This document shows, one piece after another, positions 937 through 59,560 of a stretch of DNA of 64,000 nucleotides (position 1 is the stretch's first letter; each line of letters opens with the position of its first letter). The position numbers and the translations under genes are program-made. The stretch is from Amphibalanus amphitrite (lineage: Eukaryota > Arthropoda > Thecostraca > Balanomorpha > Balanidae). Location of the stretch: the NCBI RefSeq assembly GCF_019059575.1, contig NW_024881518.1:930001-994000 (forward strand), in the 5' to 3' direction. The notes under the pieces are model-generated. The model was not told where the DNA came from, searched no databases, and was given only the letters and a program-made list of their open reading frames with translations.

Positions 937-1792
937 TCCTGGCGACAAGGATGAGATCAAGGTGAAGCCTTGGAGCTGTGATTGCGAGTGATGGCGAAAC
1001 GGGCCAGTGATCAGTGCGCGGTGGTCAGCGAGAGCGGACAGGCCACGGACGGTGAGGGCGCAAACGTTGCTTAGTACGAATGCTTAGTGCTTAGTATTGC
1101 TTAGTATTTTTATTTTCGCGCTGCTGCTGGTAGTGTGCCTGTCGCGCGGCGGCCGTTGTCCTGGTCCTGGCAGGGTTTTCCATGTGATCGCCGAAATTCG
1201 TGGCGGCCATGATGCCTCGGCAGTGTGGTGTGCGTGCGTGGCGCATGCGTCGGCGTGCTGCACGCTGATTGGTCGGCCGGGGGTGACGCGCAGCTGTGGC
1301 AGCGCGTGTGATTGGCCGATCGGTGCGGCGGAGAGGGCCTCAATGCGGTTTGAGGTGCCTGGTCCCCGAAGCGGGTAATTTCGGCGGGAAGCTGGCGCGC
1401 GGCCGGGCGGTGCGGGACGAGTGCGCATGCGCGCGCGGTGACGTGCGTGTGACGTCACTACCACGTGACGCCCCCGTCGAGAAAAGCGCGGGAAACCGCA
1501 GCTGCAGCGCCAAGTACAGGCGCAGGGCGGCGCGGTGAGCGGTGGCCGACCGGCGTGTGCGGTGACCGACCGGCGTGTGCGGTGACCGGCCGGTGTGAGC
1601 GGTGACCGGCCGGTGTGAGCGGTGACGCCCGGCTGCGGGCCGACCGGTGGAGCGGCTGCGGGCCGCCGGTGGAGCGGCTGCGGGCCGACGGTGGAGCGGC
1701 CGCGGGCCGACGGTGGAGCGGCTGCGGGCCGACGGTGGAGCGGCGGCGAGCCGACCGGAGAAACGACGTGCTGGTGAGAGGGCGGCGGCACG
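937..1792 (+). other. Leader of the first Ty3/Gypsy element with GC-rich tandem repeats
   Basis: About 860 bp separate the 5' LTR from the gag-pol start. From about 1540 to 1765 there are short GC-rich tandem repeats, first units built on GGTGACCGACCGG and then units built on GAGCGGCTGCGGGCCGAC. Frames that cross this region on either strand are repeat artefacts. A long structured leader is plausible for translation control or packaging, but that is inference. Confidence 0.7.
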
Positions 1793-7409: not shown

Positions 7410-9758
7410 TCACCTGCGACTGGCAGCCGTGGGTTTGGATGAACTGGCTTCCTGAGAAGTCTCAGCGGGTCCTCCTGTCTCCGAGCAGGTATTACCATCC
7501 GAGACGGGTAGCCGTATGTCAACGTCCTCAGATGAGAACACAATATCGATCCCATTCCAGTCAATGATAGGGAGTTGCACAGCCTCTGAAAAAGAACATA
7601 AAATGTGTAATTGTGCATGCATCATGTAGATATTTGTAGGTATTATAGATACTATTTTATAATATCACTGAGGCTTAACCCGCGCCCCACTGGGGGGGGG
7701 GGGGCTATTTATAGCCCCCCTCCCGTTTTTCTGCAATAACTTCCAAACCGCTTGACGTATCGACGCTAAACTTTCAGTACCTTCGGCTGAATCAATTTGA
7801 CACCTTGTGTCAAAATTTGAACTTCATACCTACCATAGGTCGGCCGGAAATGACGTCAGAGTGACGTCATGTTCGGCCGATTTCGACGCAAAACATTGAA
7901 CAACGGCAATCGCTCCCAAGAGCTCAGTTTTTAAGCTAGATCCAATTTCTTTGCATGACAGGACTCACAATAGACTGCGCTATCAAACTGCTATCTCGGA
8001 TTTTCGAAATTTTGAAAATTTCGAAAATTTTATATAATAAAATTCAAAATTTATATTTTTTATATTTTTTTTCAAAAACTTTTTGACTTTTCGAAAAAAC
8101 CGGAATATATGTGATAGAACGCATTATTATGACTAACTCTAGCAAGTTTTAGCAAAATATCTTCAAAAATGGCCAAGTTATACGCATTATTGCAAAAAAT
8201 TAACAATTATTAATTTTTCAAATCAATTTTTCAGCACGAATTTGACATCGTACGCCAATATAAATAGCACCATCGTGTTCCTGAGCTCAAACTGCATCCA
8301 ATAGACACCTTTTTGTTGAAAAATGTTAACTTCAAAATTTGACCTTTTTTGACCTGAAAGTGACCTGACCTAAGCGAAATTTGACTCAAAATGACCTCGA
8401 ATGACACAGACGACGTCAAATTCGCAATGTTTGGCCTAAATGGACCATAAAACATGTGTCACGTGACCGACGGATGATATAATATTTTCGTGACCTGTGA
8501 TGACCTGACCTTGACCTGAAAATCAAAGTACAAGTTTGGTACCCTCAGAGTATCTAGAGCATCTGTTCACGAGTGTGTGAACCAAAAATGAGCCTGATCT
8601 GACTTGTAAGACGGCGGCCAGAGCCCAAAACGTGAAGAAGCCAAAATGCTAATAATTTTTACTTTGACCTGACCTGTGACGTCATCAGTGACCTCGAGGT
8701 CAATGAAATTAGGTTTCGCTCGACAGTTTTTCCGGGGCTATCAGACGCCGTTTGAATTTTGACGATCGGCCCAGTAGTTTCGGAGTTAGGAGGGGGGCTA
8801 TGAATAGCCCCCCCCCCCCCAGTAGGGCGTGTTATACGCAGACCCCAGTGGGGCGCGGGTTAAATAAGGCATGTTCTGAACAAAATGAGACATTCTTATT
8901 TGGATTTGAACTCTCGAGTCTAAAAATAGCGTGATCAATATTGATCATTAACAATTGACAATCGCTAAACAGATCACATTGCTACGCCATGGTGCTTGAA
9001 GTAAAATGCCACTTAGAAGGCTATCAATTAAACAACAGAAAATTTGGCGTCGGTTGCAAATTCTTACCTTTTTCAATATATTTCACAGGACTGGCCTGTT
9101 GGACCGGCGAGAGTCTTCGAATTGTGACCGGCTTTGGCGGGTTGGACACATTAAAAATGGTGGGAACTGCGTCACGTTTCAGCCGCCTGCTTCCACCCGG
9201 ATAGTAATAAGAAGGCTCAAAGTGTTCTGAGCACAGCCTGATGTTTTCATAGAGGTACTCGGGGGACTTGTCAATTAGGTCCGCCCGCTGACAGAGCTGC
9301 ACCCACTGGCTCGACCTGCGGCACGGGGAATTAGAGGCACATTTTTGTGATGCATTTTACACTATACACATTCTCAAAGAAGCAATGCAGGTAGACTAGT
9401 GCATTACACAGGTTTGCTCAGTTTGCTAACCCTGGCCCCGTTAGGTCCTAAGCTCATAACGCAAGCCGTCGGGATGTATATGCGACCCTCTGGCGATTGG
9501 CACATAGGTATTGCACGCAGAAACACCAAATTTACAGGGAAGCTAAGTGGAACTTTCAAAGACAGCGCAAAAAGCCAAGCAGTCATTGGCCCATTTTGAC
9601 TTGCAGAGATCTGTAGGTAAGTAGGTACCTTCCTACTACCCTACTCACCTTGCTGGATCAATGGGAAAACGGTGAAACGATAGATGGCGCATCCCTCCCT
9701 TCCGATTACGACAGCCAATTGCACCGCAATATGAGCCTTCTGTCTGAAGAGATTTCAT
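7410..9758 (-). CDS. THAP-domain zinc-finger protein, three exons, 177 aa
   Basis: The coding exons read complement(join(7410..7585, 9068..9315, 9649..9758)), 534 nt in total. The start ATG at 9756-9758 gives MKSLQTEGSYCGAIGC. Exon 1 ends at a GTGAGT donor, exon 2 begins after GCCGCAG and ends at GTAAGA, and exon 3 begins after TTTTTCAG; both junction phases agree. The THAP fold is clear: zinc ligands C11 and C16, C65 and H68 (LCSEHF), invariant P32 (HRFP) and W41 (QWVQLC), and AVPTIF at 86-91. THAP domains bind DNA in a sequence-specific way, usually as nuclear regulators. The C-terminal half is acidic and unstructured-looking (DWNGIDIVFSSEDVD). It could be a host gene or a domesticated THAP transposase remnant. 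Intron 2 holds a TTAA-flanked repeat. Confidence 0.85.
7679..8859 (+). mobile_element. TTAA-flanked non-autonomous element, family A copy 1
   Basis: TTAA at 7675-7678 and 8860-8863 flank inverted termini CCCGCGCCCCACTGGGG (7679-7695) and its exact complement (8843-8859). Just inside each end is a G-run hairpin around CTATTTATAG or CTATGAATAG. The right end carries the GCCC-ACTGGGG block twice, the left end once. The TTAA target and CCC start resemble piggyBac-type MITEs. No transposase is encoded. The interior has many TGACCTGACCT segments. It sits in intron 2 of the THAP gene. Confidence 0.85.
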
Positions 9759-10848
9759 GATCATTTCCTAAGTTCTATCCTAGTAATTGATCCCAACTGG
9801 ATTGAGCAGTTAGCGAACAATGAAGACGGCCAAGGCAACACGGCCAATTAGTGATGCCATATGAAATAAAAAACAAAAAATGAGAAAGACACGTGCTAGC
9901 TAAGTCTGCAGCATTCTCCCAGCTTCGTGATTCAAGAAACAAGTTTCAAACAAGCACTTCCTTTAGTGTTAGCCTTGTTTCTTATTCCAGTCAGGTTTTT
10001 GTTCTTCTTTCCAGTTTCCTCGAAAAATGCACTGTCCGTTTTTTCGTGGGAAAATGCACTGTCATGTTGCAAAAAGATGTACCTACCGTACCTTCTGCCT
10101 ACATGCTATCAATGCTAAGCGACGGCGTTCGCTCCGTCCAAGCTCGCTAGCGATAATTCGGCCAACAGATGGCGGGACGGCAAGGAGGCATTCACCCAAT
10201 AGTACGGAGACGCCAATCCAGTATCTTGTCCTTATCCATCCAGATAAGTATCTATCCAAACATCGCTAGATTATCCATGAGGACCATGACAGTGCCATAG
10301 TGTTACCAAACGTAGCAACGGGTCCTGTGGCAAGCATCATTTCAGCAACAGCAACGGTGTTTTACAGCGTCACGTCTCAGGCAGCATTTTAGCTCTCAGT
10401 GTCGTCAGTAGCTTTACAGCGTATCTGAAACATTTTAAGAAGCTGTCAATGCAAATCATGTCGCCTCTGCATAATAGGTCCATTTGCGGACTGTAAAAGT
10501 TTGATTTATGTCGAAAAATGACATAAATATGCAAATGTGATGGCTGTTTGCAGCAGGCATTATCATTTAGATGCATAGTTATTCTTATGCTACAGGCGAG
10601 CAGCTTTTGACAAGATGCGTTTGGAACTGCGCCGCTCTGTGGACAGCGCAGTATCTTCAGCAATAAAGAGTTATCTATTGGGGCAAAGAATACTGATATC
10701 AGGGAACTAAGATTAAAAGACCCTTATAAAAGGAATACAAGTGGTTTGTTTTTCAATTTAAAATAAAAAATAAATTGCACAAACCTTAGGATATTTATCA
10801 ATTCAGGAGAGTTCGCTAGCAATTCAAAGGTGGAATGCATCCGCCATC
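9759..10848. other. Intergenic stretch, nothing recognised
   Basis: This is the presumed upstream region of the minus-strand THAP gene. I see no convincing exon, repeat boundary or RNA gene. A minus-strand frame around 10370-10663 has no recognisable domain. Confidence 0.4.
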
Positions 10849-10853
10849 CACAA

Positions 10854-11032
10854 TGAAGTAGACAGCACGGCGTCCCGTTCAAAAACTGTATTGCTTCCCG
10901 GCCGCTCACCCGAGGTCGTGTCACAGATACTGCCCGAGGCACCGGGCGAGTCCACTGGGACGAGAGGGGTGACCAGTATGCGAGGGAGAGAGGGAGGGAG
11001 GCCGCCGGTAGAGGCGAGAGCCGGTTATGACA
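10854..11032 (-). repeat. 3' LTR of the second Ty3/Gypsy element
   Basis: A 179-bp repeat, TGTCATAACC...CTACTTCA on the minus strand, matching 15323-15501. Confidence 0.93.
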
Positions 11033-11126
11033 TCCCTCCACCCCGCAATATAACATAATCACAACTAACGTAACAACAAAACTCTGGTCACTTTTAACGA
11101 TATCAGGCACGGAGAGCTCACAAACT

Positions 11127-14100
11127 TCACTCACACAACAGCCGGTCCGGCCGCCGTAACGTCTCTCGCGGACGCAGATTGTATCGCGGCGCCGGCGGCG
11201 GTCCGCCCGCCGGGACCGACGGTGACCCGTCCGAAGCAGCCGGGGCCACCGCCCAAGCCGTCAGTCCGGCCCTCGGCGGTACGTCGGCATCAAACAGGTC
11301 CCGCCGCGTCCGATCCAGGTCCAGCGCCCGTCCAGCGGTCGGCGGCGGTACGTCGGCCATAGTCCGGCGCGGCCGGACCCGATCCAGATGCCTCCAGATC
11401 ACTCTCCCATCCTGCAACTGAACAGCCAGTTTTACTCCCTTCCGCACCACTATCACACCCGGCAGCCATTTACAACCAGCAGCACTTTGTACACGATCAA
11501 CGGCTGACACAAACACAGCATCGCCTACGCACACGGAACGTTCATAGGAGCCCCTGTCGGCGTACTGTTTTTGTTTGTCCTGGTTTTTCCTCACTCTACC
11601 ACTCAGATCAGGCCTGACCAGATCCAGCGGGGTTCGCACCGTCCTGCCAAGGAATAATGCCGCTGGGGACACCTGGGTGGTTGTGTGCGGTGTTGTGCGA
11701 TAGCGCAGCAGAAAACGCGCTATTTTGGTGTGAATCGTGCCCGATGTTTGCTTTTTAATGCTGTTTTTCAATGTCTGAACACTACGCTCCGCCAAACCGT
11801 TAGATTTCGGAGACAGTGCAGGAGAAGTCAAAAGATGAATGCCATTCGAGCGACAGAACGTCTGAAAAGTCTCAGACAAGAAACATTGTGCGTTGTCAGA
11901 CACAAGAGTCTTTGGCAGCCCCCACGAGGAAAATGAAGCGCGCAAATGTTCTATGGTGGTCTCGGACGTGCATGATCGCGACGGAAACACGTCCATCCAC
12001 TTTGAATGAGCGTCAATGACAATTAATACCCACCAGCCATCAATTGGACCACAATAATCTACGTGCACACGCTCCCATGGTTTTGATGGCCAAATCCATG
12101 GGTGCAGCGGAGTCTCAGGTACGTTGGCACGATAAGCCTGACATTTGCCACAATTCTGTGCAATGGATGTGATGTCCTGATCAAGGTTAGGCCACCACAC
12201 ATACATTCTTGCGAACGACTTGGTGCGCGTCTCTCCGCAGTGCCCGTCGTGTAGAAGACTCAAAATTTTTGCCCTTCCCTGTGGCGGTATCACAACGCGC
12301 GAACCCCACAATATACATCCATCCTGAATGCTCAGCTCGGCTTTACGGGACCTAAAAGGTCGGAAATCTGGCGACAGCACCTCCCCGTCATCCGGCCAGC
12401 CCTCCTGAACATACTGAAGCACGACAGCCAAGACAGGGTCTCTAGAGGTCCACCGGCGAATGTGGTCCACAGTGACCGGAGACGCGTCTAAAAACTCCAT
12501 CAAATGTATCGTCTCCGCCGGAACGGGGCTCGACTGACCGACCACCGACGACGGGACGGGCAGCCGACTGAGCGCGTCACAGTGAGTTTGTTTAACGCCG
12601 GGGACGAATTCAAGGCGATAATCATACGCTCCCAGCATAAGGGCCCACCTGACCACCCGGGGCGATGCCATCAGTGGGAGCGGCTTGGACTCACCTATCA
12701 GCCCCAGCAGGGGCTTATGATCGGTCCGTATTGAAAACGGACGGCCCGCCAGATAATAGTGGAACCTCTTTACACCGGCCACCACCGCCAAACCCTCCCG
12801 GTCGGTCTGGGAGTAGCGCCTTTCAGTCTCGTTTAAAGAGCGCGAATAAAACGCGATCGGTCTCTCCCCTTGCCTCGTTTGCTGGCTAAGAATGCACCCC
12901 AATCCCACTGGACTGGCGTCACATGCCAAAATCACAGGGAGTTTTGGGTCAAAATGTCCCAAAACGGGAGGGCTTTTGAGCAAACGTTTCGCATCCTCAA
13001 AAGCTCTCCTTTCAATGTGCGTCCACCGCCAAGGGCGATTTTTCCGTAACAGAACATAGAGCGGCGAAAGGGTGGTGGCCAAACCCTGCAAAAATTTTCC
13101 GTAGTAATTGATAAGGCCGAGCCAGCACCGCAGCTCGGAGACATCTCGGGGCTCTGGCGCGCCCGTGATGGCAGCGACCTTTTCCTCAGTCGTCTCCACG
13201 CCGCTCCCGCTGACCTTGTGACCCAGGTACGTTACGCTGTCCACGCCCAAACAGCACTTGTCCCGGTTCGCCCTGAGACCCGCCTCACGCAGCCGGCGCA
13301 ACACCTCACGCAGCGCTACATCATGACTTTCCACAGTCTCACCCGCCACGACAACATCATCGAGGAACACACACACACCCTGTATCCCCGCTAGCAGCGT
13401 GTCCATGGTTCTCTGGAACAGGGACGGGGCTGAAGCGTACCCGAAGCTAAGTCTCGTGGGTCTCAGCAATCCCCTCTGTGTGTTTACGGTCAGAAAGTCA
13501 CGTGAACTCTGATCGAGAACCATCTGGTTGTACGCGGACTTAAGGTCTATCTTTGAAAAGACCTTACTGCCCGTTAAGCGTGTTAGCAGCTCTTCCACGC
13601 GTGGAAGCGGATATTGGTCCACCTTGGCCACCCTGTTGACCGTGAGGCGATAGTCCCCACATAACCTGATCTTTCCCCCTGGTTTTGGCACGACGACTAG
13701 GGGGGCGGCCCACTTACTGTGCTCCACCGGCTCCCACAGTCCTTGCTGGATCTGTTTCTCCAGCTCGGCATCCACCTGCTCGCGGAATGCCAGTGGGACT
13801 GTGCGAGCTTTGAAGAATCTCGGCTTCACATCGGGATCCACCGAAATGGTCACCTCAGCGCCACGATAGCACCCCAAACCATCGCTGAAAACTTCAGAAA
13901 ACTCATGAACGAGCTTCTGAGCCCGAGAGCGGTCGGTAAGCTGACATATGGAGGGCCAGTCCAGTCGTATGGTCGACAGCCAGTTTCGACCAAAAAGAAA
14001 TGGTCCCTCGCCCTTAACTACCACCAGCGGCAGCTGTGCTCGCTGCCCGCCATACTGAACATCCACCATCGCCTGACCACACACCCCTAACACCTCACCG

Positions 14101-15281
14101 CTGTAAGTTTTCAACAGTTTGTCACATGGCCTAAGATGGGGCCCACCGACCGGCCAAGTACCCTTGAACACTTTCTCTGAGCAAACAGACAATGCAGCTC
14201 CCGTATCTAACTCCATACGTAGCGGGCAGCCGTCCACACATACATCAACCATTAGTGGTGGTTTACGATCTACTCCCAACTGCACCCCTTGAGCACGGAA
14301 CAAGTAATATGGCTCGTCCTCACCGTCATTGTGGGGCGCCGCGCCACTCTGAGAAGTCCCAGGCGTCACGGACGGCTCCGGCTGCTCCTCCTCCTCCAGC
14401 AGCCGGACACGCTGAGACCCGGCGCGGCTCCGGCAGGCCGCTCTGGTGTGGCCCACGGCTCCGCACGCATAACAGTTCTGCGAGCGGAAGGGGCAGGCCG
14501 CCGGGACGTGCCGTCGGCTGAGACAGCGGCTGCAGGTACCCCGCGCCGGCGGAGCGCGGGAGGCAGCCCCGCCGGTGTCCAATGGACGCTGATTGTCGTT
14601 CACCAGTGCTCGCCGACTGTCGTTCACCAGTGCTCGCCGGCTGTCGTTCACCAGGGCTGGTCGGCTGTCGTTCACCATCCTCCGTCGTGTCCCATCGACT
14701 CGTCCGATGACGGCAGACGACTCGGAGCGGCCGCTGAGCTCGGCTGCACTGGCTGCTGCCGACTCGTGGGCCTGAGCGATCTCCAGAGCCGTGTCCAGAG
14801 TCAGCCGCGGCTCGCTCAGCAGACGTGATTGCAGCCGCTCATGCTGAATACCGCAAACCAGTCGGTCACGAAGCATCTCGTCCAGCTGGCCTGGCTGAAA
14901 CTTGCAGGGCTTCGCAAGCTTGCGGAGCCTCGCCGAAAACGACGACACTGACTCTCCAGCATCGCGAGTGCAGGAGTGAAACCGAAATCTGGAGACAATT
15001 GCAGATTGTTGCGGTTCAAAGTGATCGACCAATATCTTCACAAGCTCCTTGAACGTTTTGTCTCCCACTGCGGCTGGGGCTATGAGGTCCTCCAGGAGGC
15101 TGAAGGTGCTGGCGCCAACCGCGCTCAGCAGTATGGCGCGGCGCTTCTCGACTTCATCTTCACCGACGCTGTTGGCGACAAAGTGCTGTTCGAGACGCCT
15201 GCTGTACGCGCCGAACGACTCCACTGCCGCATCAAACTCGGGCGCCCGGCTCACTGACGCCATCACTGCTTCCCTTGCCAC
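11127..15281 (-). CDS. Gag-Pol polyprotein (Ty3/Gypsy)
   Basis: A single 1,384-residue frame that starts about 40 bp after the 5' LTR. Gag contains a stretch of about four tandem VNDSRRAL units near residue 205, then CCHC knuckles near 245 (CSRCLSRRHVPAAC) and 268 (CYACGAVGHTRAAC). Protease has MELDTGA near 356. Reverse transcriptase carries FLDDVVV near 645. RNase H has LACDASPVG. Integrase has an HHCC finger (HDGHCGE...CGKCQ) and a core with VHVDYCGP, VSDNAQCF and SNGLAERSV. Domain order is that of Ty3/Gypsy. The frame looks intact. Confidence 0.94.
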   Translation of the reverse strand: MAREAVMASVSRAPEFDAAVESFGAYSRRLEQHFVANSVGEDEVEKRRAILLSAVGASTFSLLEDLIAPAAVGDKTFKELVKILVDHFEPQQSAIVSRFRFHSCTRDAGESVSSFSARLRKLAKPCKFQPGQLDEMLRDRLVCGIQHERLQSRLLSEPRLTLDTALEIAQAHESAAASAAELSGRSESSAVIGRVDGTRRRMVNDSRPALVNDSRRALVNDSRRALVNDNQRPLDTGGAASRAPPARGTCSRCLSRRHVPAACPFRSQNCYACGAVGHTRAACRSRAGSQRVRLLEEEEQPEPSVTPGTSQSGAAPHNDGEDEPYYLFRAQGVQLGVDRKPPLMVDVCVDGCPLRMELDTGAALSVCSEKVFKGTWPVGGPHLRPCDKLLKTYSGEVLGVCGQAMVDVQYGGQRAQLPLVVVKGEGPFLFGRNWLSTIRLDWPSICQLTDRSRAQKLVHEFSEVFSDGLGCYRGAEVTISVDPDVKPRFFKARTVPLAFREQVDAELEKQIQQGLWEPVEHSKWAAPLVVVPKPGGKIRLCGDYRLTVNRVAKVDQYPLPRVEELLTRLTGSKVFSKIDLKSAYNQMVLDQSSRDFLTVNTQRGLLRPTRLSFGYASAPSLFQRTMDTLLAGIQGVCVFLDDVVVAGETVESHDVALREVLRRLREAGLRANRDKCCLGVDSVTYLGHKVSGSGVETTEEKVAAITGAPEPRDVSELRCWLGLINYYGKFLQGLATTLSPLYVLLRKNRPWRWTHIERRAFEDAKRLLKSPPVLGHFDPKLPVILACDASPVGLGCILSQQTRQGERPIAFYSRSLNETERRYSQTDREGLAVVAGVKRFHYYLAGRPFSIRTDHKPLLGLIGESKPLPLMASPRVVRWALMLGAYDYRLEFVPGVKQTHCDALSRLPVPSSVVGQSSPVPAETIHLMEFLDASPVTVDHIRRWTSRDPVLAVVLQYVQEGWPDDGEVLSPDFRPFRSRKAELSIQDGCILWGSRVVIPPQGRAKILSLLHDGHCGETRTKSFARMYVWWPNLDQDITSIAQNCGKCQAYRANVPETPLHPWIWPSKPWERVHVDYCGPIDGWWVLIVIDAHSKWMDVFPSRSCTSETTIEHLRASFSSWGLPKTLVSDNAQCFLSETFQTFCRSNGIHLLTSPALSPKSNGLAERSVQTLKNSIKKQTSGTIHTKIARFLLRYRTTPHTTTQVSPAALFLGRTVRTPLDLVRPDLSGRVRKNQDKQKQYADRGSYERSVCVGDAVFVSAVDRVQSAAGCKWLPGVIVVRKGVKLAVQLQDGRVIWRHLDRVRPRRTMADVPPPTAGRALDLDRTRRDLFDADVPPRAGLTAWAVAPAASDGSPSVPAGGPPPAPRYNLRPRETLRRPDRLLCE

Positions 15282-15322
15282 TAATCACCGCGCGGCGCAC
15301 ACGTTCACCGCCTCGTCGCCAT

Positions 15323-15501
15323 TGAAGTAGACAGCACGGCGTCCCGTTCAAAAACTGTATTGCTTCCCGGCCGCTCACCCGAGGTCGTGTCACAGATACT
15401 GCCCGAGGCACCGGGCGAGTCCACTGGGACGAGAGGGGTGACCAGTATGCGAGAGAGAGAGGGAGGGAGGCCGCCGGTAGAGGCGAGAGCCGGTTATGAC
15501 A
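15323..15501 (-). repeat. 5' LTR of the second Ty3/Gypsy element
   Basis: A 179-bp LTR next to the primer-binding-like TGGCGAC on the minus strand. Confidence 0.93.
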
Positions 15502-15818
15502 CACAATTTCAGATATGGCGAGCTTTTTACCATCTAACAGCAATGTCAAAAATTTGGTTTTCGGCCTAGCAGACTTTTTCGGGCGGGAAACCTGTTTGAC
15601 TTAAGTATGGAAAAGTCCCACAAAATATAGAATATGCTTGTTTCAATGATAACTCAGGTGCACATGTGCTTCGGTCAGCACGGACACCTTTAGAACCATA
15701 CCCATGCTTTTTGGAAAACGACATCCCTGAGACTTTGCCGGCGCCTAAATTGTATAGCATGACCATTGACCAGTCATACTGACGTTTTTTCGATTCTCTG
15801 CCCCCAGTACGGTCCGCG

Positions 15819-16702
15819 ATGTCGGGCCGCGGCTGTGGAGTGGTCTCCTGCTACCACGAGCACGTGTCACGACTCTCCGTCACGTTTGGCGCCGTCACGC
15901 TGGCGCTCGTTACGCTGTGCGTGGCTACCGACCGCTGGGTGACCACCACCGAGGGGTCGCCAGTGACGTCAGAGCCAGCCGCCTCCAGTGACGTCACCAG
16001 GTTCAGAATCGGCCTGCTGCGGATCTGCCGCCTGGCCGACCAGGAAGGTGATGGTGAGTTAACCAGCACATATTTCTCAACGTTAGCATACTGTTCACAG
16101 CTTCAGTGCAGACAACTTTTACGAGTCGGTACAGAAAAGCCGATAGGAAATAAAGTAAAGCCTTGTCCATCCTAAGCTCTCAATTTAAATATTCATATTG
16201 CTCCAGCGCTAATAATTAAAGGGACACTCCCACCTTAACATTAGTTTTGAGTTGAGATAGCCAAATTGGTGGCCATGGCCTGCAAATACCGGTTTGGGCA
16301 CTCACAACATCGACAAATGCTTTAATTCGGAGATATGGAATTTCAAACTTGCAGTTTTCGGATTCTAAGGGGCTAGTGCATTGGTATGCCCCCTTAGAAT
16401 TTGTGACGTCAGCGGAGATCTAACGATTTTTAAATCTTTTACTAAAACGTTTGGTAGCATGCGGTGGTATATGCTGCTTTGCGCGCAACAAATGCCGCAC
16501 TTTCAAATAAAGTCGCTAGGAACAGCGGAGATCCCAAAAAGTAAACAAAAGTAAAAGTCTAATATCTTGAAAACCGGTGAATATTTTTCGATGAAATTTG
16601 GTAGATATTCGTTTTCGCTCTTTCTGAACCGAGCGACATCACTTTCGTGCCAATTCATTAACTTTTTTGAAGGTGGGAGGGTCCCTTTAAGTAGCAGTTG
16701 AT

Positions 16703-16786
<84 letters not shown>

Positions 16787-18918
16787 CCTCCCTCCCTCCC
16801 TCCCTCTCTCCCTCCCCAGGTTCGAACTCCTCAGACTCCGAGGATTGCTCCTGGATTGATTATCTAAACACAGACCGTCTCACCAGCGTGGACATCAAAT
16901 CCATTCACCTGGTGGCCGTGTTCACCGTCAGCGTCGTCGACCGGATCAGGTCAGGTCGGCTCAGGTTATGTGCTAAATACCTAAAGGCATCTCAATTAAT
17001 ATGAAATAAAGGTAGACTTTCGATTTCTTTCGTTTTCAAGTTATAAACATCAAATGCATCTGCGCTGGCTTCTCGTGTGCTAGAAATGCATCCGGTTTAT
17101 CTCATTAATTCATCACAATTCACAATTGAGTATCAAGTTCCCAATGCTAGTTCCATAGTAATAAGTAACTATATCCGACCGTTCCTCTGACCTCTCACTC
17201 ATTACGTCATGACATTCACGAATGAAACACTCCACTCTGATACCTCTCCTGTCGTGCTAAATGCGTTCAATTTATATGTATGTCGTTGCCTGAGTAGTAA
17301 AGCATGAGCATTGAGCAGCGTCCATATCACATATGGGCATTTCGCCTCATTCTGCCCCCGAAGAGCACCTATTCGAGCAGCCGTTTCACGTGTCTTCCAC
17401 CCGAAGTTCCCTTGTCTCCTGTGGCGTTTTACCCGCTCCGTTCCACCGTGCGCAGGCGGATAGCTCCGGTGCTGGCACTGTGTCTGACAGTGGCCGTGGT
17501 CGGCTGCGTGCTCTCCATCGTGGGACACTGCAGAAAGTCGCGCTGCACCATCGCCGCTGCCGGCATGTTCGTGTTAGCAGGTGAGAAAGCCCACTGCTCA
17601 GTTAGACAGTGTGTATGCATAGATATAAGATAGTACAATGGAGGAAAGAAAAAAAACTTAGCAAATACAACCCTTTTGCTAAGTTATTTTGTGCAAGCCG
17701 CCTTATTATAGTGAGCTCAGAGCTGTATCATAAACTGAAATGAACCATCGTCTCAACAGCTTAAAAAAACAATTAAAGTAATTTTATTACAGTTCCCGTC
17801 CCCCAATGACCAATCAAACTCTTTCGCCCACGGAACCGAGCCGCGAACTGTAGCGTTATTGATGCTGGTATGCTGTGCCGGCGAACACAGATGCGATGCG
17901 GCACAGTCTATCCTCCCAGTGAATTTCCACCGCCAGCGATGCCGTGTCTGGAGCAGCGATGCGAGCGAGGGAATCTTCGCCAGAGTTCTGTCATGGCAGT
18001 CGCCAATCAGCACTAAGAGCCGTCCCAAGGACTTGGGGACTTCATGGACGATTCGATGCAAGGCTCACTTAGCCTTTGGGAGCGATGCTATGCATTTAAG
18101 CAGACTGCACCTGCGGGGCTCATTTTGAACATTGTGTTGTGTGTACCTACCCGAGTCCTGAACTAAGCATACACGTAACATGTGACCTGACCTGGACTAA
18201 CCCGAAAGGTCTTACGGTGGTCATGCACCTGACCCTCATCTTGGAGGTCTGATATCGACTTTGAATCTGACCTAGCCTGTTCCGGCAAATTAAAGGTCTG
18301 ATCCTTAATCCTGACTTTAGCTGATCCGGAGGATTTTATGTCGGCTTTGAGCCTGACCAAACCTCAGTCGACAGGTCTAATGGCGACTTGCTACCCCGGC
18401 AAGGTTTGATTTCGTTTTTCTTTACGTGACCTCGTATGCCCTGACCCGCAGGTCTGCTACTGGGCTCCGCTCAGGTGGCCATGATGAACATGCTCTCAGA
18501 CGAGTTCCTCGTTCGTCCGCTACGCTCCGGTGGCGCCACCAGCTACAAAATGGGCGCCTGCTTCTACGGCGCCGCCGCCGCCATCTTGGTCGCTCAGCTG
18601 GCGGCACTCATGTCCGCACACGCTTTTCTTCGGCGCGTGCGCAGTCCGGTCGACCTGCTGAAACGCGCGCCCACGCGTCCTCCGGAACTTTTTGTCGGGA
18701 CGCACAAGCTGGATCTCGCCGCAGAATCGCCCCTGGCGCCCGTGGTCGGTCACTCGCGTACGCTGCCCTCTCGCGGACGGTATGCGAAACAGGTGACATT
18801 TGACCTTGACGAGCCGCGCCCTCTAGTGGAGAACAATGGCGGCGTAGCGGGAGGTCACGTGAGGTCGCTGTGCGACCTGCACAGAGCCGATGATCGATTT
18901 GATTGTAGTAGAGTGTAG
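15819..18918 (+). CDS. Calcium-channel gamma subunit / stargazin-like four-pass membrane protein, four exons, 318 aa
   Basis: The coding exons read join(15819..16053, 16820..16949, 17456..17580, 18452..18918), 957 nt, with GT-AG borders and matching phases at all three junctions. The predicted protein has membrane segments at about residues 20-36, 126-145, 152-173 and 198-222. After segment 1 comes W40, then GLLRIC at 65-70 (compare GLWRTCC in gamma subunits), and Cys88 before IDYL. SYKMGACFYGAAAA opens segment 4. This is the claudin/PMP22/CACNG fold, closest in layout to gamma/stargazin proteins, which modulate voltage-gated calcium channels or AMPA receptors at the plasma membrane. The family placement rests on remembered motifs; a GSG1L-like or other claudin-fold protein is the main alternative. 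Intron 1 holds a TTAA element and a (CT)n tract. Confidence 0.82.
16220..16686 (+). mobile_element. TTAA-flanked MITE, family B copy 1 (T2/Kolobok-like ends)
   Basis: The element starts AGGGACACTCCCACCTT and ends AAGGTGGGAGGGTCCCT, flanked by TTAA at 16216-16219 and 16687-16690. At 467 bp it is too short to encode a transposase. TTAAAGGRR-type termini are those I recall for T2/Kolobok MITEs. It lies in intron 1 of the gamma-subunit-like gene. Confidence 0.8.
16707..16818 (+). repeat. (CT)n then (CCCT)n microsatellite forming a 3' splice-site pyrimidine tract
   Basis: About 75 bp of pure CT and then CCCT units run into CCCCAG at 16819, the acceptor of exon 2 of the gamma-subunit-like gene. 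Confidence 0.9.
18180..18451 (+). repeat. Degenerate TGACC/CTGACC array before exon 4 of the gamma-subunit-like gene
   Basis: About seven TGACC cores lie in the last 270 bp of intron 3, ending CTGACCCGCAG at the acceptor. Each CTGAC fits a branch-point consensus. Confidence 0.6.
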
Positions 18919-21900
18919 AGGGGAGGGGGGACTTTCGGGGGACTTTCGGGGGGAGGACTTTGAGGGAAAAAAATGTGAAGAGGCACTAGGCAGGGAAGGG
19001 AGGGGTAATCGGCAATGTTTTCACTGAGTGTGTATGTTAGGCTAGTGGATATCGTGGGCGATTTTTGTTATGGACTTGTCACATCAATGCTTGGCGAGAG
19101 CCGAGAACACAGCGATTTTTGTTGTAAGGACAAAATATATTCGTACTGTGTTTGGTAACGGGCCTTACAGATGAGATTGTGGTACTGCTGAAGTAATAGG
19201 CTTTAGTCTTTTGAAGCTGGAGGTGAGCGGTGATGGTCCTCCGACCAATAAGTCATGCGACACAGGCTGGGGAGAGGGAGACAGAGAAACGAAGAGGGGA
19301 AACGACATGGAAACGACGCTTCGATGGGACGCTCAGAAACAATCAAATATTGATATCTTCTCACCGATTAATGGTGGCAAAGCAGAAACATTTCAATTCA
19401 ATTATTGGTCATTATGTTATCCAGTGCCGTACTTTCCTATTGTAAACAACATTTACAAGGAATTTTCACTGGACAGTACCATTATGTAGCTGAAGCCTGA
19501 ACTTAGCAGGCTCAGCGATGCAAATTAGGTATATCTTCGGCATTAAGTACCTATAATAGCAGGGCTGTGGAGCGACTAACTTCGGACACAATCAACTGTT
19601 TAGTTTTTCTTTGCCGAAATCTGGTGCTACTAAACTAGCGTGAGCATTCATAATTTGACAGGAGCACTATACATGCTGATGGACGTTGAGTTGCAAGTTT
19701 CACATGTTTTCAACAAGATGCCTTTATGGGGAGGAAGAGCAACTTTCAAGGATTCAATATCCCGCTTTGCCCAGTTATCGTAAACAGTTTATCGGCGGGA
19801 ATAGACGCCATACAAGTTCAGAAATACTTGCGAAGTCAGGCTGCTCGAAGTAAAGCACCACAAATTCGGACAACTTCAGAGGCCTGCGGACGTTCTGGGG
19901 ACTAGGTTAAAATTAAATTAACGGTTCAGAGGCTCAATGAAGCAGCTCAAGACAATGTAATGAAGTCCAGATAAAAAACACCGGTGACATGGGCGTAGGG
20001 ACCTCACGAAATGTGTGTGTGTGTGTGTGTGTGTGTGGGGGGGGGGCAGCGAAACTTCAATGTCACTTTGTGGGAACCCCAATACGCCTATATGAAGAAA
20101 TTCTTTGCAGTTTTGTGCTCATCTCACCTTGCCGAACCATGTCCTGCTCTTAGTTTTGTAGTTAAATAAAAATAAAGATTTTACTTAAAACAATGGCTGA
20201 AAAGCGGGGGGGGGGCATGGCCCCCCGTTCCTACGCTTATGACCGGACCGGTGATAAAACATGGAGCCACCGATAAGGTAATTATGCTAAGGCTAATATT
20301 TGTTTTGTGATTCTAACTTTTTACTCCTGTTTCAGCGCACGGGTGAGGTGTTATATGCATTCATACATTGTAAGAAATTTGGCTCGACATAGTGACAACT
20401 GAAAAAAGATGTCGCGAGGAGCATGCTGTAATAAGCTCCTTCGGTACGAAAGTTACACCGAAATCACCACGTTTCACGTATGGCGTACGAACTTAAGCGT
20501 TCTTGTAAAATAATAAAACCAGACCAGCCTCTCAAAAGAGCCATCAATTACCCTAAACAATGCAATAGCTAGCTATGCATCAAATAGCATGTTTTAACTT
20601 TTGAGTACGATGTTTGCTGCTCGTAGCTTGCCAATACTACTAGCAACATTCCCGTAATGGCCATCGCCTAAAAGACAAATTATTCATATCACAGTCTATT
20701 TTGCATGGCAACGTTTGACAAGGAATTCAACACTCATCTCTGACACAACCACATACCATTCCAGACTTTTGCTGCCCTAACCATCTCACCACTGCCTCTG
20801 GAAGCTCCGTCCTGAACGCCTGACCCCTATCATGACCTCTCCCCACCACCCGGGACAAATCAATCGCACCTCTGACCCCGGCTTCACCAGGAGCCGGCGT
20901 CGGCAGCCGCTGGAGATCAATGACACCAGCAGTAGCTGCACATAACTCGGACAGGGGCGGCTGGAATGTCTTACGGAAAGCGGGTGACGGTGGCAGCACT
21001 GCAGGCGGTTACACCTGGGACTCAAAGATGCACAATTAGCTGCACAGAAGTGGTTGATCGAAACACGATTGGGACTGTAAATCAATGCGATGAAACGGAA
21101 CTAAAACGAACAACATCACTGACTAAATCATGCTTAATCATAAATACTTGGCGATCATATGAGCCAGCAACCACTTAAGCATTGCAAAGTGTTCAATGAT
21201 CGTTATGACAAGTCAACAAGATTAAATAACGGAATGAGCAACATTTTGTCAGTGAAAGAAAAACAGATTGCACAATAACGCAGGTGACTATTGACCTTTG
21301 TGACATTTTATCATGCATCAGCACTCAGCAAGGCAAACACTAGGGCCCCTCGTAATGTAAATACCAATCGCATGCATACAAGCTAGTGGACAATGCACAT
21401 GGCAACGGTAGACTAGATATAAAGCTGGCAGCGCGGAGATTTTCATACACTGTCATTGCAATTTACATGTGTGAAAATCCCGTTCCAAAAAGTACGCAAA
21501 TCTGGAAGAATCACAAGCAAATCGCAAGCAGTAAAACTCCTGGCGACAGTTAAGCCGATAGCACATCATACACTAAGCACGCAAAGCGCACCTGACGGCA
21601 AATGATGCCAGGCATTTAACCATTACATTTTCAACACAATGGATAAGCTACAAGACAGACTTCTCTATGCAGAAAAGTCTGTGACTACAGGCATCACCTC
21701 ACATCACATACACTCTACAGTTTATTTGGCGTTGCTAAGCCCGAAGTCGCTGCTAAGCCCGATGCTCCCATTCTGCTGATATACGTCAACCTTTGACGAC
21801 AAAGGCTAATGGATCACTGCTCCGGAGCAAAAGGAAGCAAACCTCCCATAGAAGGACGAAATCCAATAACTTGGATTCACAGAGGCGACGTGGAAGCCGC

Positions 21901-22620
21901 GTGACCGTTCTATTAGCTATGTATCTGACTGGCTATGTTGGTGGCTATGTTTCTGTTGGTTACGTTGATACTACAGGGATGCAGTTCCACCATGGTAGCC
22001 TAGCATAGGAAAATAAACGACATAGCAGAGCCCATGAACCGCTTTTAACGTCGTGGTCTATCATTATTAACGGCCATTATCAGGAATCCAAAGCTCAAAC
22101 TTAGGTAGGCGCAGGCGACGCCGTTATGGGCCGTAAGACTTTTTAACGCCACTTTGGGTCACAGGTAGCTACAGGTAATGTTCGTTACATTACCGTTCAA
22201 ATGGACAGCAACGCGCGCTTCCGAGTACCGACATTCCAATGTGTCTGCAGGCCCATTAACGTTGGCGATACTGCCTAGGGTTGATGGACAGCCTCCCTAA
22301 GCGCATGGTGCTATTAACCGTGCCTTTGGGACATCAGAGTTCCTGAACTCGGGAACGTCCCTAACGGTTCACAGCAGTCTCACAGGGTCTCTACCGTCTC
22401 TCTCACGACACTGCGATCACTTGGCGACGACACAGCTGCAGCATGACGTCATTTACTTCATCCTGCCTCACCAGTTACATTCACTGCGGTACAGCATCTG
22501 ACAAAGAGTTGGTGGCGTCGCCATCCCAACCTTGCATAGCTACCGCCGGAATATGGTTTTTCCTTGATCCCTGCAGCACAGTCTCTGACAAAGCCCATCC
22601 TCGTGGCCACTACCACAGCG
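18919..22620. other. Intergenic region between convergent genes, no clear gene
   Basis: The plus-strand membrane-protein gene and the minus-strand unidentified gene converge here. A (GT)n tract is followed by G9 at about 20012-20047. Segments 19987-20035 and 20200-20245 contain inverted GGCGTAGG / CCTACGC blocks, perhaps a small MITE of about 250 bp. A minus-strand frame at 20727-20999 looks protein-like (FRTELPEAVVRWLGQQKSGM) and has a GTATGT after it, but no family is recognised and no partner exon was found. TTTATT at 21721-21726 could be a minus-strand polyadenylation signal. Confidence 0.4.
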
Positions 22621-54094
<31,474 letters not shown>

Positions 54095-54335
54095 CTGCCG
54101 AGACAAACCCGAGTTCTCAGTGGAGATAGCGTAAGGTACTCACTACTCAGTGGGTACATGCCGGCATTCTCAAACTGTCGAGACAAACCAGAGGTCTCAG
54201 TGGAGACAATATAAGAAGCTCACTGCTCAGCCGACCGTGACACTGCGTGCACACGCTAGCGTTCTCCAGTTGCCGAGACAAAGCATTGTCTCAGCAGCTG
54301 GCTCAATGAAGACAGCGCGGTAAGGTGCTCGCTGC
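54095..54335 (-). repeat. Two upstream tandem copies of the exon A acceptor region
   Basis: Units of about 80-105 bp repeat the pattern TGAG(C/T)AGTGAG...TTTGTCTCGRCA(G/A) followed by TGGAGAACGC-like sequence. Copy 2 reads CTCGACAG|TTTGAGAATGC and copy 3 CTCGGCAA|CTGGAGAACGC. Copy 3 keeps the two-cysteine motif (CTQCHGRL). Confidence 0.7.
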
Positions 54336-54346
54336 TCAGCTGTTAA

Positions 54347-55260
54347 CCCGCGAGTTGCTGGGGGGGGGGGGGGGCGTTAAATGCCCCACTTTTTTCGCCG
54401 GGCCATAGTATAAGAATGGCGCGCCAAAATTTGGGTACCTGTAAGGAATTGATTGAAGTTTATTGTGACAAAGTTTCAAAAAAATCGGTCAGAAAATTTT
54501 TGAGATATCGAGGTTTTAGTGACGTCATGATTTCTGAGTTTTCGACCAAAAACGGCATATGTTCGAAAAATCATATAAAATCACAGAATAGACATACAGA
54601 CATTGCCTAAACGCCATTAGACTGCCAATACCATGAACAATCAAATGGCTATCTTCGATTATTGATTATCGTTCCGCATTTCCCAAAATCTTGAACTGAA
54701 TCTTGGCAATTTCTCGTGACTTCTTCACGACCATGATACATGCATTTTTTAAATTGAACTTTTTGAGCGTAACACGTACACATATGATAAAATGAATGTC
54801 ACCATCGTGCTCTACGCTCAAAATTACCCATAAAACATGTGTCACAGGCTGCGAATATCAGTTTTGATTTTCGGGGATATGTGCCTACCCGGTTGACCTG
54901 ACCTTGACCCTGACCTATGCTTGACTGACCCCTACATGGAGCTGACACTCTTGTAGGCCTTATATGAAGGATTTTGCACCGTTTTGGAGTTTATGACGAG
55001 AGGCGCCCATTGCGAAGTCCTGAAGTCCATGCTACTGAAAGCCCGATTTCAGGTGTTTGACCTGACCTTGACCTGACCTGTGACCTCAAAATTCAACTTT
55101 AAAGTACTCATCTGAAGCGTCTCGTCGCGTTCTTTCGTTTGCCGCCTAGTGCGTTTCGCTGCGCCTATAGGTTCTCGAGTTATCGGCTGGGGGCGTTTAA
55201 CGCCCCCCCCCCCCCCCCCCAGCAAACGGTGGGTGGCGAAATACCCCAGCAACTGCCGGG
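54347..55260 (+). mobile_element. TTAA-flanked non-autonomous element, family A copy 3
   Basis: TTAA at 54343-54346 and 55261-55264. The left end is CCCGCGAGTTGCTGGGG, and the right end reads inward as CCCGGCAGTTGCTGGGG. Hairpins are built on GCGTTAAATGC (left) and GCGTTTAACGC (right). The TTGCTGGGG block is single on the left and double on the right, as in copies 1 and 2. The interior has TGACCTGACCTTGACC segments. Confidence 0.83.
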
Positions 55261-55264
55261 TTAA

Positions 55265-56110
55265 AATGAGCGGAAAAAAACTTCGAAATTCGGAAACGGA
55301 ATTTCAACATTAATATCTATTTAATGACCCAAACTAAGCAAACCCCAATCTATAGCAACTCAACCTCCGACCCAGCGCAAAAACAATGCCAATTACGCCA
55401 ACAAACAAACAAAGCCAACAAAGCCAACAAAGCCAACAAAGCCAATTAAATCTGCCAGAAATAACACGCCGATGACGTCACTGGTCTGACAGAAAGAATG
55501 GGCTTATGATGCGAAGGAACGCCGGAGCGGAGCCCTGAAAGGCCCGAACGACGAGCGCACTGCGCCGGCACCGGCCGGCCGACTCAGGAGTCAGGAATCC
55601 CCGCCGATAGTAGAGAGGACAATGAGCCGAGTCAACTGCAGGGGAGGAGACTGTCCGGGTGTACGGGTTGGTCCAACCACGGATCACATAACGGATCGGC
55701 AACTCCCCCCCGCGACCTGTCTCCCCTGCCACCTGGTGGGCATTTAGGTGAACTATCTTCACTAAGGAAGCGGCCGGCCTCGTGCGTGTTGAGGGCGTCG
55801 TGTCGGAGCTAATTAAGTGATTTTTCTGCGGAACATGGTTTCTCAGCTAGCTCAGAAGATACCTATGGTATAAATGAGAATGGCAAGAATCGTTAGAGAC
55901 AGGTTAAGTATTTGAGATCGTATCCTTTGTCATGAAAATCGTTGTTTTCATACCCACGTGGGCGACCTAGCGTCCATCGCTAAATTGGTAATTTTCCGAT
56001 CGCTGTCATCTCTTACATATATTTCATGAGTACATTTTTGATAAATATTCATCTGCCGATTAAATTAAATCTATAACTTTCACAAATATCCTACTTGCAT
56101 AAAGTATAAA
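55265..56110. other. Intergenic or intron sequence with an interspersed repeat
   Basis: AAAGCCAAC units repeat at about 55410-55447. At about 55650-55785 lies a block (ACGGATCGGCAACTC ... ATCTTCACTAAGGA) that recurs inverted at about 60725-60840. No gene recognised. Confidence 0.4.
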
Positions 56111-59100
56111 CCCACGCCGGGCCGGTACACGGTACCAACCGCGCCGGGCCGAGGGTGTATGAAACCCCCGCCCCCTCCTAACTCGGCTTCTGGGCTACGT
56201 AGCCACACGGGGTAAGCGGCATTCCAAAGGGCGTAAAAATAATGGCGGAAATACTTCGGTCATTTTTTTAGGTCAGATCAAAGGTCGGGTCACCAGAGGT
56301 CATTAAAGGCAAATTTTGTCTATTTCAACAATTTTCGAAACATCCGACGCATAACTTGGGAACCAACAGAACTACAGAGGCGCGGAAAAGCGCATTCGAT
56401 AGCTCTTTCACAGGTCCTTCTGAGTTTTATTCACAGATTTAAAGGGACCATCCCACCTTAACATTAGTTTTGAGTTGAGATAGCCAAGTTTGCGGCCAGG
56501 CTCAGAAACCACCATTTATCCTGGTCGCAACCCCCGCAGCTTTATGGTGTTCAAGAAATTTCTTCCCTTTACTTGCAGGGTGGGACCAGCTTAGTCCCTA
56601 TCTCTTAACCATTAGCGGTTTGTTGATGACGTCAGCAGTCATTTCAACGCCCGCCATTCCTTGAACCCGAGTTTTGCTGACCTTGAGCTCTCTTTTTTAT
56701 CAACGTGAAATCCGTCGTCGGCGCTGAGAAAGCCTATTGCTTTTCATTTTAATTTGAATATTAGAATATACCCACCACTGGAACTTGGACTGATATTATA
56801 CCAAGGCCGAAGATGATCAAGCTGCCTGCTATATCTGGAGCTTGGTGTTCAACTTCAACATGGAATGAAAAACAAAATATCAAAGCAAACTGGATATGGT
56901 ACTGCAAGTTTAAGTCCAAAGAAATTTGAAGAGCTGACAATTGACATTAATTCTTTTCCCGCAAGGTTTCCATAGGAGATCACACCATGAAGAAAAATTT
57001 TTTGATGTTAACAGTTGAAAGGGGATTGATCTTCCAGTTTTGACGAAAGACGCTGCCGACTGTCTTTGGAAAAGGATGTCGGCATGAGGTGCAATTGTGC
57101 TTGTGAAGTGGTTATAACTTGTCTTTTCACAGTGTTAAATTAAATGTGCCATTGCAGCCAAGTGTGTTATCATGTAAGGTAAAATCAAAACTACAATGTT
57201 GGTTTTACGAGCATTGAGAAGGCTGGTAGGTAACACCTGCCTGTGCTCGTAAATCATGCTGCCAAAGTATTCTAAATTAATTTTATCATACACTTTTGTT
57301 GTCCAGAATGGTTGCACTATTGTTTGGTATCATATTATTCCATGTACATATGGTAGTGTTAAGTCCGACCAACATGTTACCAGATTTGAAGCTGTTACGT
57401 TACCTAAGTACCTACCTGTTTTTTTTTACTGGCGTGGTGAATGTCACCTGGATTTTGTTTTGAGGTGCAGACCTAGTAACTCTGACTACATGGGTTTGAA
57501 GCTATTATCTATTCTGTTTTTACTGGCCTGGTGAATGGCGACTGATGTTGTCCGTGGATGGCACTGAAACAAATTTTGAGTGTCAACTGCCATGTACAGT
57601 GTTTTAATACAATGCTGAGGGCTGAAAGTTGTCTTGTTTAGAGTGGTGAAAGTTCAGGATATGCCAGCCACCATGGTGGGTCAGAGTTAATGTGTTGCAG
57701 TCAGTTCGGCTTCGGCAAGCACACGGATGGGCATACGCATCAAGACCTGCTCTGCCATACTTTCAGCCAATTTTACCTAGGCAAGTCTTTTCTTTTTTTC
57801 TGCCAAAAGCTATGACATTGTGAATTTCAGTGCTGTGGCCTGTGTGTAGCTTTCAGGAAAGCAATTCTAAATAAAGCTCTGATAAAGTGCATGAAATCAC
57901 CAATGCAGCCCTCTATTACATTTTCTACAACATCTTACTCGTTCCTTGCATGGAGAGAAAAATGCAACGTTATGAATTCGTTTATTCACATAATTTGACA
58001 AACATGCAGTTACCTGCTACTATCACTGCACAAAACAGAGCAGAAAACATCAGTTGATCAAACACAAGACACAACAGAAGTTTACAACATAGGCCTGCCG
58101 AACCTGCTTCCTCCCATGAGTCCCACCACAGTTGATGCCATTTCCTAGCCTGGCTTGATGTGAGCACTGAATAGCTGCTTTGTCTAATTACAGCTCACTA
58201 CCATTCAACTTAAACTACTCTCTTTAAAGTAAGAGTGAGAGCGTTCAGTGTTCATAGCAGCTCGAGAGACGACAGACAATAAACATCTTGACAAACCAAC
58301 CAGTATTTGATTTGGCTAATGATTTATGTGCCTGTTGTATCATGGCCAAACTACTTTAACAGCAATAATCCCTGTTTCATCTTGATCTTGCTTTTAATTC
58401 CATTTGAACTCAGATCTTGAAACAATCATCTGAAGTGATATCAGACCTACTGGCTTCTCTTGAAAGCAAGTTGATAACAACAACAATGATAAACTAAGGC
58501 AGGAGATGTGAGTTGTGGCAGTAGATTTTTGATTCAACATATGTCAACCTTATATTGCTTGAGACCTCTGTGACAGACAAACAAATATTTATAGTTTTTT
58601 GATAGTTTGGATTCTTGGCTTGATTTAGCAGATCAGCTGTGAACCTTGACTTTGAAATCACATAAATGTCATGGTACCCGAACGAATCCTCGCATGACAT
58701 TTCTTCGTCCGCATTTCTTCGTCTACAAATCTTCGTCGGTGCATTTATTTGTCCATCAATGCTTACTCTTGCATATATTTGCGTTGAAGAAGAAATGCGA
58801 GCCGATTTTCATATACCCTGATGCGAGACAAAGTAATGCGATACGAATAAATGCCCTGACGAAGATTTGCAGACGAAGAATTGCGATACGAAAAAATGCC
58901 ATAAGAAGAATTGTCCTGGAACCCTTTGTTGGCCATCATATATTGACCTTGATAAGATAAACGCATCATTCGCGCAATATTTGTCGCACTTTGATACCAA
59001 ATTATTGCTTCCAAATGCCGACGTAAAGAAAACCTTTATGTGACGTCATAGAAACAGCGGATTTCCCAAAAAGTAAACAAAAATAAAAGTCTTATATCTC

Positions 59101-59560
59101 GAAAACGGTTGAATATTTTCCGGTAAAATTTGGTAGATGTTCATTTTCGCTCTTTGTGATTCACGCTACATCACTTTTATGCCAATTCATTAACTTTTTT
59201 GAAGGTGGGAGGGTCCCTTTAACCTCAGGTCAACGGTTTAGCGTCCAGAGAGCAAAATCTCCAAAAATAGCCGTGTTTACGAAAAACGTTTTTTTCGGTA
59301 ATATCTTTTGACTCAAACGAGCCACGACATTACTTTTGCCAGCATCGTGTTCCTCTCGTCGAGACGCGTCGAATGAACTATAGGTTGACCTTGAAAGGTC
59401 ATTTTGAAAATCTTACGTCAGGTGAAGGTCATGACCTGACCGGAAAGGGTCATTCTGCATATCAGTCGATCCGTATCGTCGAGCTGAACACATCTGACGT
59501 GTTTTCATCGCTCTAGCACGTCTCTATCAAAAGTTATAGTAAAAAACTGCTGGTGAACGT
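56111..59560 (-). mobile_element. Family A-like element, copy 4, interrupted and lacking one end
   Basis: The end at 56111 (CCCACGCCGGGCCGG, a spacer, then CGCGCCGGGCC and a hairpin-like block with CCCCCGCCCCCTCCTAACTC) matches the double-block end of copies 1-3. The flanks of the family B element inside it (56439-56442 and 59219-59222, TTAA) rejoin into sequence homologous to copy 2. The far end is not recognisable near 59560. Confidence 0.65.
56443..59218 (+). mobile_element. TTAA-flanked element, family B copy 3, with about 2.4 kb of unexplained cargo
   Basis: It begins AGGGACCATCCCACCTT and ends AAGGTGGGAGGGTCCCT, flanked by TTAA. The first 130 bp match copy 2 and the last 180 bp match copy 1. 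The middle (about 56600-58980) is AT-rich, has no long open frame and resembles untranslated mRNA or a decayed transposase. An imperfect inverted repeat with TTCGTC/GACGAAG motifs lies at about 58690-58930. Confidence 0.75.

Follow-up and report, generated by a model that had tools for sequence, protein, structure and literature searches.

At the ends of Tc1/mariner elements of the IR/DR (inverted repeat/direct repeat) type, repeated binding sites of 30-odd bp lie inside long terminal repeats. In published accounts, the bivalve BIV160/Cg170 satellites and the oyster HINE repeats contain conserved boxes in otherwise dissimilar monomers, some of them within Helentron-type elements (PMC7492417, PMC5139131), and the satellites of Meloidogyne carry a conserved Box 1 which resembles the CENP-B box (PMC3694981). 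Subterminal inverted repeats are given as a feature of Helentrons (PMC4067079). Here we analyzed a stretch of 64,000 nucleotides from Amphibalanus amphitrite (NCBI RefSeq assembly GCF_019059575.1, contig NW_024881518.1, positions 930,001 to 994,000 of the forward strand; hereafter the window), in which one short gapped motif, termed M, is shared by the repeat families A, B and C, a foldback element and a palindromic miniature inverted-repeat transposable element (MITE). We tentatively regard M as a candidate binding site for a protein.

Results

Recurrence of M in the window and in the genome

From the alignment of representatives, M was defined as a gapped, directional motif of 38 bp, AAnTTT-n6-AATCGGTCMAnnnGTT-nnn-GAGATAT. 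When the 16-bp core of M (AATCGGYCCAGYNGTT) was counted in the window with up to two mismatches, 31 matches were obtained against 0.36 expected, and none of 100 shuffles got to 31; the similarity thus lies above that of AT-rich shuffles. The first-pass annotation had reported the motif at a series of places in these families. Each of the eleven coordinates that we examined holds M on the strand given there, the other family C copies and the foldback units were recovered as well, and two further instances (8144-8181 and 28375-28412) were added.

The scan was then extended to the whole genome (807.55 Mb, 2,644 contigs), where the exact 16-bp core was found 10,594 + 11,157 = 21,751 times, against 2 + 2 = 4 for the reversed pattern. 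A sample of 20 arbitrary 10-kb blocks (L047-L066, 200 kb; 264 kb together with the window) contained six exact cores, in agreement with the genome count. Five of these six lie inside family C copies, and the genome count is therefore no measure of how many families carry M. A relaxed pattern of M, which also holds AATTT-n6, gave 194 matches and none when reversed, and 20 of the flanks were fetched.

In the 264 kb, a 25-column profile of the core gave 74 matches at 11.5 bits or more, compared with 1-5 in five Markov-4 controls, and a 38-column profile gave 89 matches at 12 bits or more, whereas the reversed sequence had 4 and Markov controls had 2.4 on average; both counts include the training instances. 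The 74 core-profile matches fell into 14 clusters with unrelated flanks; nine of these consist of one match each, some of them weak, and the other five have several.

M has one preferred internal spacing. The block AAnTTT, which is not part of the 25-column profile, begins exactly 12 bases upstream of the core in 10 of 17 distinct contexts, all ten of them from the three lineages A, B and C; across the 17 contexts it occurs at only four other places in all, and in reversed contexts never at -12. On the other side, the spacing GTTT-n2-GAGATA was found in 29/29 genome matches when gaps of 1-4 were allowed, which is weak evidence because 24 of the 29 are one identical string. The sharing of M among these elements is real.

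Independence of the lineages that carry M

Several candidates for separate families were merged during the analysis. The groups named E and G turned out to lie in a single element related to A, as two M modules at a distance of 331 bp; the second and third copies of family A grouped with A, the third being related to G; and F was related to C. M is therefore carried by families A, B and C, by the foldback element, by the palindromic MITE at 28.3 kb and by L081 and L082, each a single copy; counted with these mergers, it stands in five to seven lineages, with one to thirteen copies per element. A further carrier, L063, has a 35-bp stretch outside M in common with family A.

A cross-validation was performed in which the profile was built without the tested lineage and the best match in each element was compared with 300 Markov controls. 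M was detected in 10/10 elements at 16.7-35.4 bits, values that 0/300 controls reached in any case, the lowest being that of L063 (16.7 bits; control maximum 13.8). The fair part of this test consists of the six elements already named in the first-pass annotation, that is family A copies 1, 2 and 3, family C, the foldback element and family B. Copy 1 of family A scored best at 8144..8181 (23.5 bits; control maximum 19.9), copies 2 and 3 gave 23.1 and 35.4 bits, and copy 1 of family B, the weakest of the claimed families, gave 23.4 bits against 14.1 for the best of its controls. The palindromic MITE gave 22.0 bits.

When M was masked, BLAST comparison among family A copy 1, C, the foldback element, family B copy 1, the palindromic MITE, L081 and L082 returned no match below E = 0.2. 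When it was left unmasked, cross-lineage matches with E ≤0.01 fell on M or, for family A copy 3 with L081, on a stretch like the right half of M. Since held-out profiles find M while the masked elements show no match, descent of whole elements does not explain the common motif, as the first-pass annotation had argued. Part of its argument was that the families differ in termini and target duplications: the terminal sequences of A and B do differ, but both have TTAA as target.

Fixed and free columns of M

The agreement between lineages was determined for each column, the background being 0.264. It was 0.38-0.72 at -12..-7 (AAnTTT) and reached as much as 0.92 within the core; the TT of GTT had 0.93-0.94 and GAG 0.78-1.00. 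The six-base spacer between AAnTTT and the core (-6..-1) stood at 0.24-0.38, about background; values of 0.31-0.39 were obtained for the n3 spacer and of 0.17-0.37 beyond M, in columns 26-34.

Modules within one element were compared in the same way, with random pairs agreeing at 0.24-0.25. The left and internal modules of family A copy 1 agreed at 0.80 of the constrained columns and 0.13 of the free ones, with the flanks at random level, and its left and right modules at 0.65 and 0.40. The first and fourth modules of family C gave 0.70 and 0.20, and the third and fourth 0.75 and 0.47. The flanks of these pairs were near random too, and M is thus kept where its surroundings have become random. 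Because the spacer is free and such modules keep M, we read the pattern as selection rather than even decay: it looks like a selected site, not an evenly fading fragment. The shared protein-binding site that was among the options of the first-pass annotation fits this pattern.

Carrier elements and positions of M

Family A was characterized on ten paired elements chosen by opposed outward M matches. TTAA stands at 19 of their 20 ends and is followed by C-rich terminal repeats. The ends are asymmetric, most of the ten elements having about 25-30 extra bases at one end, from the TTAACC repeat to a G/C-rich inner block, and AGGTCA repeats, which are like nuclear-receptor half-sites, occur inside family A elements. 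Copy 1 is bounded by TTAACCCGCG ends and carries M at the left end (7736..7773, minus strand, 31.2 bits in the 38-column profile), internally (8144..8181, plus strand, 26.9 bits) and at the right end (8752..8789, plus strand, 29.2 bits). M lies at the left end of copy 2 (32124..32161, minus strand, 34.9 bits) and in copy 3 at 54471..54508 (plus strand, 41.3 bits). In family B, copy 1 (about 16216-16690) has TTAA at both ends and AGGGAC termini, with M at 16562..16599 (minus strand, 32.9 bits); copy 3 has it at 59094..59131 (minus strand, 34.9 bits).

Family C copies begin with CACCAGTATAACGCC and, in most copies examined, end with CTCGCTCCGTAAT. Subterminal inverted repeats are present, ACGGAGCGAGCGAG near the left end and CTCGCTTCGCTCGCTCCGT near the right; no target duplication was seen in the few flanks examined, and T residues at the ends are not evident. 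The family forms tandem dimers at two places of the window, 26776-28121 and 42595-43968, and each copy holds four M modules on the plus strand: copy 1 at 26893..27344 (starts 26893, 27021, 27149 and 27307; 36.4, 35.0, 40.1 and 26.8 bits), the second tandem copy at 27574..28021 (27574, 27702, 27830 and 27984; 34.1, 39.7, 40.1 and 26.8 bits), the copy at 42.6 kb at 42712..43163 (42712, 42840, 42968 and 43126; 37.6, 34.5, 40.7 and 29.9 bits) and the copy at 43.3 kb at 43405..43856 (43405, 43533, 43661 and 43819; 32.5, 34.5, 34.6 and 26.8 bits).

An 8-bp repeat, TAATCATG, stands on either side of the foldback element, at 28726 and 30963. The element is built of 153-bp units, with seven M modules in the left arm (28773..29741, minus strand, 31.9-36.7 bits) and six in the right arm (30109..30923, plus strand, 31.4-36.7 bits), and it is inserted within a mariner-like element, near its start. 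This mariner-like element (28595-37542) has GGGTGATTCA ends, a frame at 30968 coding for a helix-turn-helix (HTH) and a frame ending near 37392 whose weak DDE match does not reach the curated cut-off; between the two frames lies other sequence, minisatellite arrays (34857-36533) among it. The palindromic MITE (28243-28527) has perfect arms of 114 bp, and M lies at its centre (28375..28412, minus strand, 21.9 bits), which is an inverted repeat built of part of M and its complement. L082 has a minus-strand frame of 109 amino acids that weakly resembles the HTH of Sleeping Beauty/Tc1 (HTH_23, E 0.00034; HTH_SB, E 0.005; neither reaching its curated cut-off), and it is probably a Tc1-like element; its M lies between this frame and the presumed terminus.

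The first-pass annotation had also placed the GAG side of M toward the nearby terminus in family A. This holds for both ends of copy 1 and for the left end of copy 2; in copy 3 the GAG side faces inward. As a general rule it fails: all 13 foldback modules do face outward, and in L082 the GAG side faces the presumed terminus, but in family B the AAATTT side is nearer to the close end and the family C modules all point in one direction. With its orientation varying in this way, M is not simply an end signal.

Other repeated sequences and frames

Further repeated sequences were noted in the 264 kb. There are 81 occurrences of the palindrome TGACGTCA, in 34 contexts with independent flanks, whereas five palindromes equal to it in composition gave 0-4. 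TGACCTGACC was counted 102 times, 0.5 being the number expected if bases are uniform. An ACGT-core palindrome lies downstream of M, within 80 bp, in 24/81 matches, compared with 5.4% of random positions; as far as can be told these come mainly from the A and C lineages, and they were not counted as evidence. Two long open frames of the window, 1778-6184 and 11127-15284, have reverse transcriptase, RNase H and integrase domains, and each is flanked by a near-identical repeat pair.

Discussion

A candidate site for a DNA-binding protein

The reading that we favour, with somewhat less than even confidence, is that M is a selected candidate protein-binding site in unrelated DNA transposons, which here comprise TTAA-target elements, a tandem-unit family, a foldback element, a palindromic MITE and probably a Tc1-like element. 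M would be a cis-acting site for a sequence-specific DNA-binding protein without a tie to any one transposase, and unrelated DNA transposons would keep or acquire it because the site aids their spread. The step it serves might be germ-line transcription, chromatin opening, or the assembly of a transposition or replication complex, and the protein that binds it might be a host factor. The wider proposal, that one such host factor is a common dependency of several unrelated transposon classes, which converged on M or exchanged it, is a further step that we consider doubtful. If it is true, a single host protein could control many transposon families at once, and M would be a direct handle to find that protein. 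It might also explain why repeats of other invertebrates that are otherwise unlike one another contain conserved boxes.

Several observations weigh against selection on a binding site. The conservation of M is partly built in, because columns 0-24 served for its detection; the pattern by which the representatives G, E, F, L081, L082 and L083 were obtained includes AATTT-n6 as well, and the constrained columns of the within-element comparison were chosen on the representatives of the cross-lineage one. Some columns upstream of M also reach a cross-lineage match of 0.39-0.43. The column profiles of the lineage sets correlate at p < 0.01 in 3/10 comparisons (4/10 at p < 0.05), with rho 0.09 between the left ends of A and family C. 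AAnTTT is missing at -12 in most right ends of A and in the fourth module of C, family B is without the AATCGG core, and the orientation of M to the termini varies between elements. Modules have not diverged everywhere: the first two of family C keep 0.84 upstream, and internal and terminal units of the foldback element 0.51 and 0.45. Four of the ten cross-validated elements, the palindromic MITE, L063, L081 and L082, were noticed through M, and family B copy 1 has no significant BLAST match to other lineages even unmasked, its M being seen by the profile only. Finally, near-identities confined to M (26/26 and 20/21 in two pairs of elements) fit recent exchange.

Exchange of a short module

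This last point leads to the strongest of the other explanations, which we rate as improbable though well worth weighing: M would be a short module without present function, which recombination, gene conversion or nested insertion had copied from family to family and which had decayed since. The near-identical stretches limited to M, namely 26/26 between the foldback element and the palindromic MITE, 20/21 between the foldback element and the right end of family A copy 1, and 31/35 between L082 and G, point to some exchange. Similarly, a second phrase, GCTATCTCGGATTTT, is common to A-lineage copies and L063, with 16 matches at up to two mismatches (about 7990 and 32355 in the window and 14 further in the blocks) against 1 for the reversed phrase, and the column-conservation profiles of A and C are uncorrelated. 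Decay should however hit all columns, yet the n6 spacer is at background between two conserved blocks and AAnTTT holds its offset in 10/17 contexts. Moreover, modules of a single element, in A and in most C pairs, retain M although they are otherwise random. M offers a marker for the exchange of short modules between element classes.

A site for related transposases

M could otherwise be the site for transposases of one related group, the families being mobilised by relatives of one enzyme, which we think unlikely. Such a site would suit the position of M just inside both ends of the ten family A elements (which were selected by opposed outward matches), the outward orientation of all 13 foldback modules and the place of M in L082 between the HTH-coding frame and the presumed terminus. 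It is at odds with the targets, which are TTAA in A and B, 8 bp in the foldback element and no duplication in the few family C flanks examined, and with the asymmetry of M about the ends in C and B.

RNA-level signals and rejected candidates

A signal at the RNA level, either a structured RNA or an internal promoter of RNA polymerase III, appears very unlikely. It was suggested by the core, which is like the A box GGYCCAGYNG: 43/74 contexts match the A box with up to one mismatch, compared with about 7% of random 20-mers. The B box that the promoter of a short interspersed element requires was at background, however, with 7/74 contexts at up to two mismatches within 100 bp against 9%, and this candidate was rejected. 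Several left ends of A, as well as B and L063, no longer have the GG of the A box. Folding z-scores, averaging 0.09 on one strand and 0.20 on the other (n = 56), were like those of shuffles, and neither an Rfam family at threshold nor a tRNA was found in the window.

Two other candidates were set aside. No CENP-B box (nTTCGnnnnAnnCGGGn) was found in M at up to one mismatch in its nine core bases (0/73 matches); 24/73 matches have two mismatches, against a background of about 7% for up to two, and many of these are copies of one sequence. A coding relic was rejected as well: although codons can be read in the core, no period of three was seen by eye in the variable columns (n6, n3, 4, 6, 8, 10-12 and 22). 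A chance likeness of AT-rich sequence has nothing in its favour, is ruled out by the shuffled, reversed and Markov controls, and can be dismissed as practically nil.

Comparison with known systems

M was found described nowhere in the literature searched by motif string or by concept, as far as the accessible parts of these sources extend (among them PMC4067079, PMC2887409, PMC7492417, PMC5139131, PMC3694981, PMC8268682 and PMC11136912). Four short M-type strings were absent from the main text, in its accessible part, of a paper on lepidopteran RTE retrotransposons (PMC2887409). The full-motif pattern had no match in viral contigs, and two stricter patterns had none either. The core alone was present in 38 stretches of the viral collection, which from their contexts, without the upstream block, were read as chance phage sequence, and two matches in GTDB (prokaryotic) were likewise read as chance. 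Since the scanned collections are viral and prokaryotic, these scans are no test of other animals.

Among DNA transposons, family A is like piggyBac-type elements at their ends, in that its targets are TTAA, its terminal repeats are short and its inner block is asymmetric; M is not known to be part of piggyBac ends. Unlike the IR/DR ends of Tc1/mariner elements, M occurs also in elements with other target sites, and in family C in direct orientation only. The microsatellite-associated families of Lepidoptera (RTE retrotransposons and Helitrons) have, like M, short conserved flanks at many loci, and a phrase very similar to M probably occurs in lepidopteran repeats. Family C resembles Helentron and HINE elements in its subterminal inverted repeats. 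M is also similar in kind to the boxes of bivalves and Meloidogyne, which in the cited accounts are likewise short conserved segments in otherwise dissimilar repeats, the comparison with the bivalve boxes being one of description. M differs from Box 1 of Meloidogyne, as far as that account goes, in having no consistent CENP-B box. In the same sources those boxes lie within satellite families or Helentron repeats, whereas M crosses TTAA-target, foldback, tandem-unit and probably Tc1-like elements.

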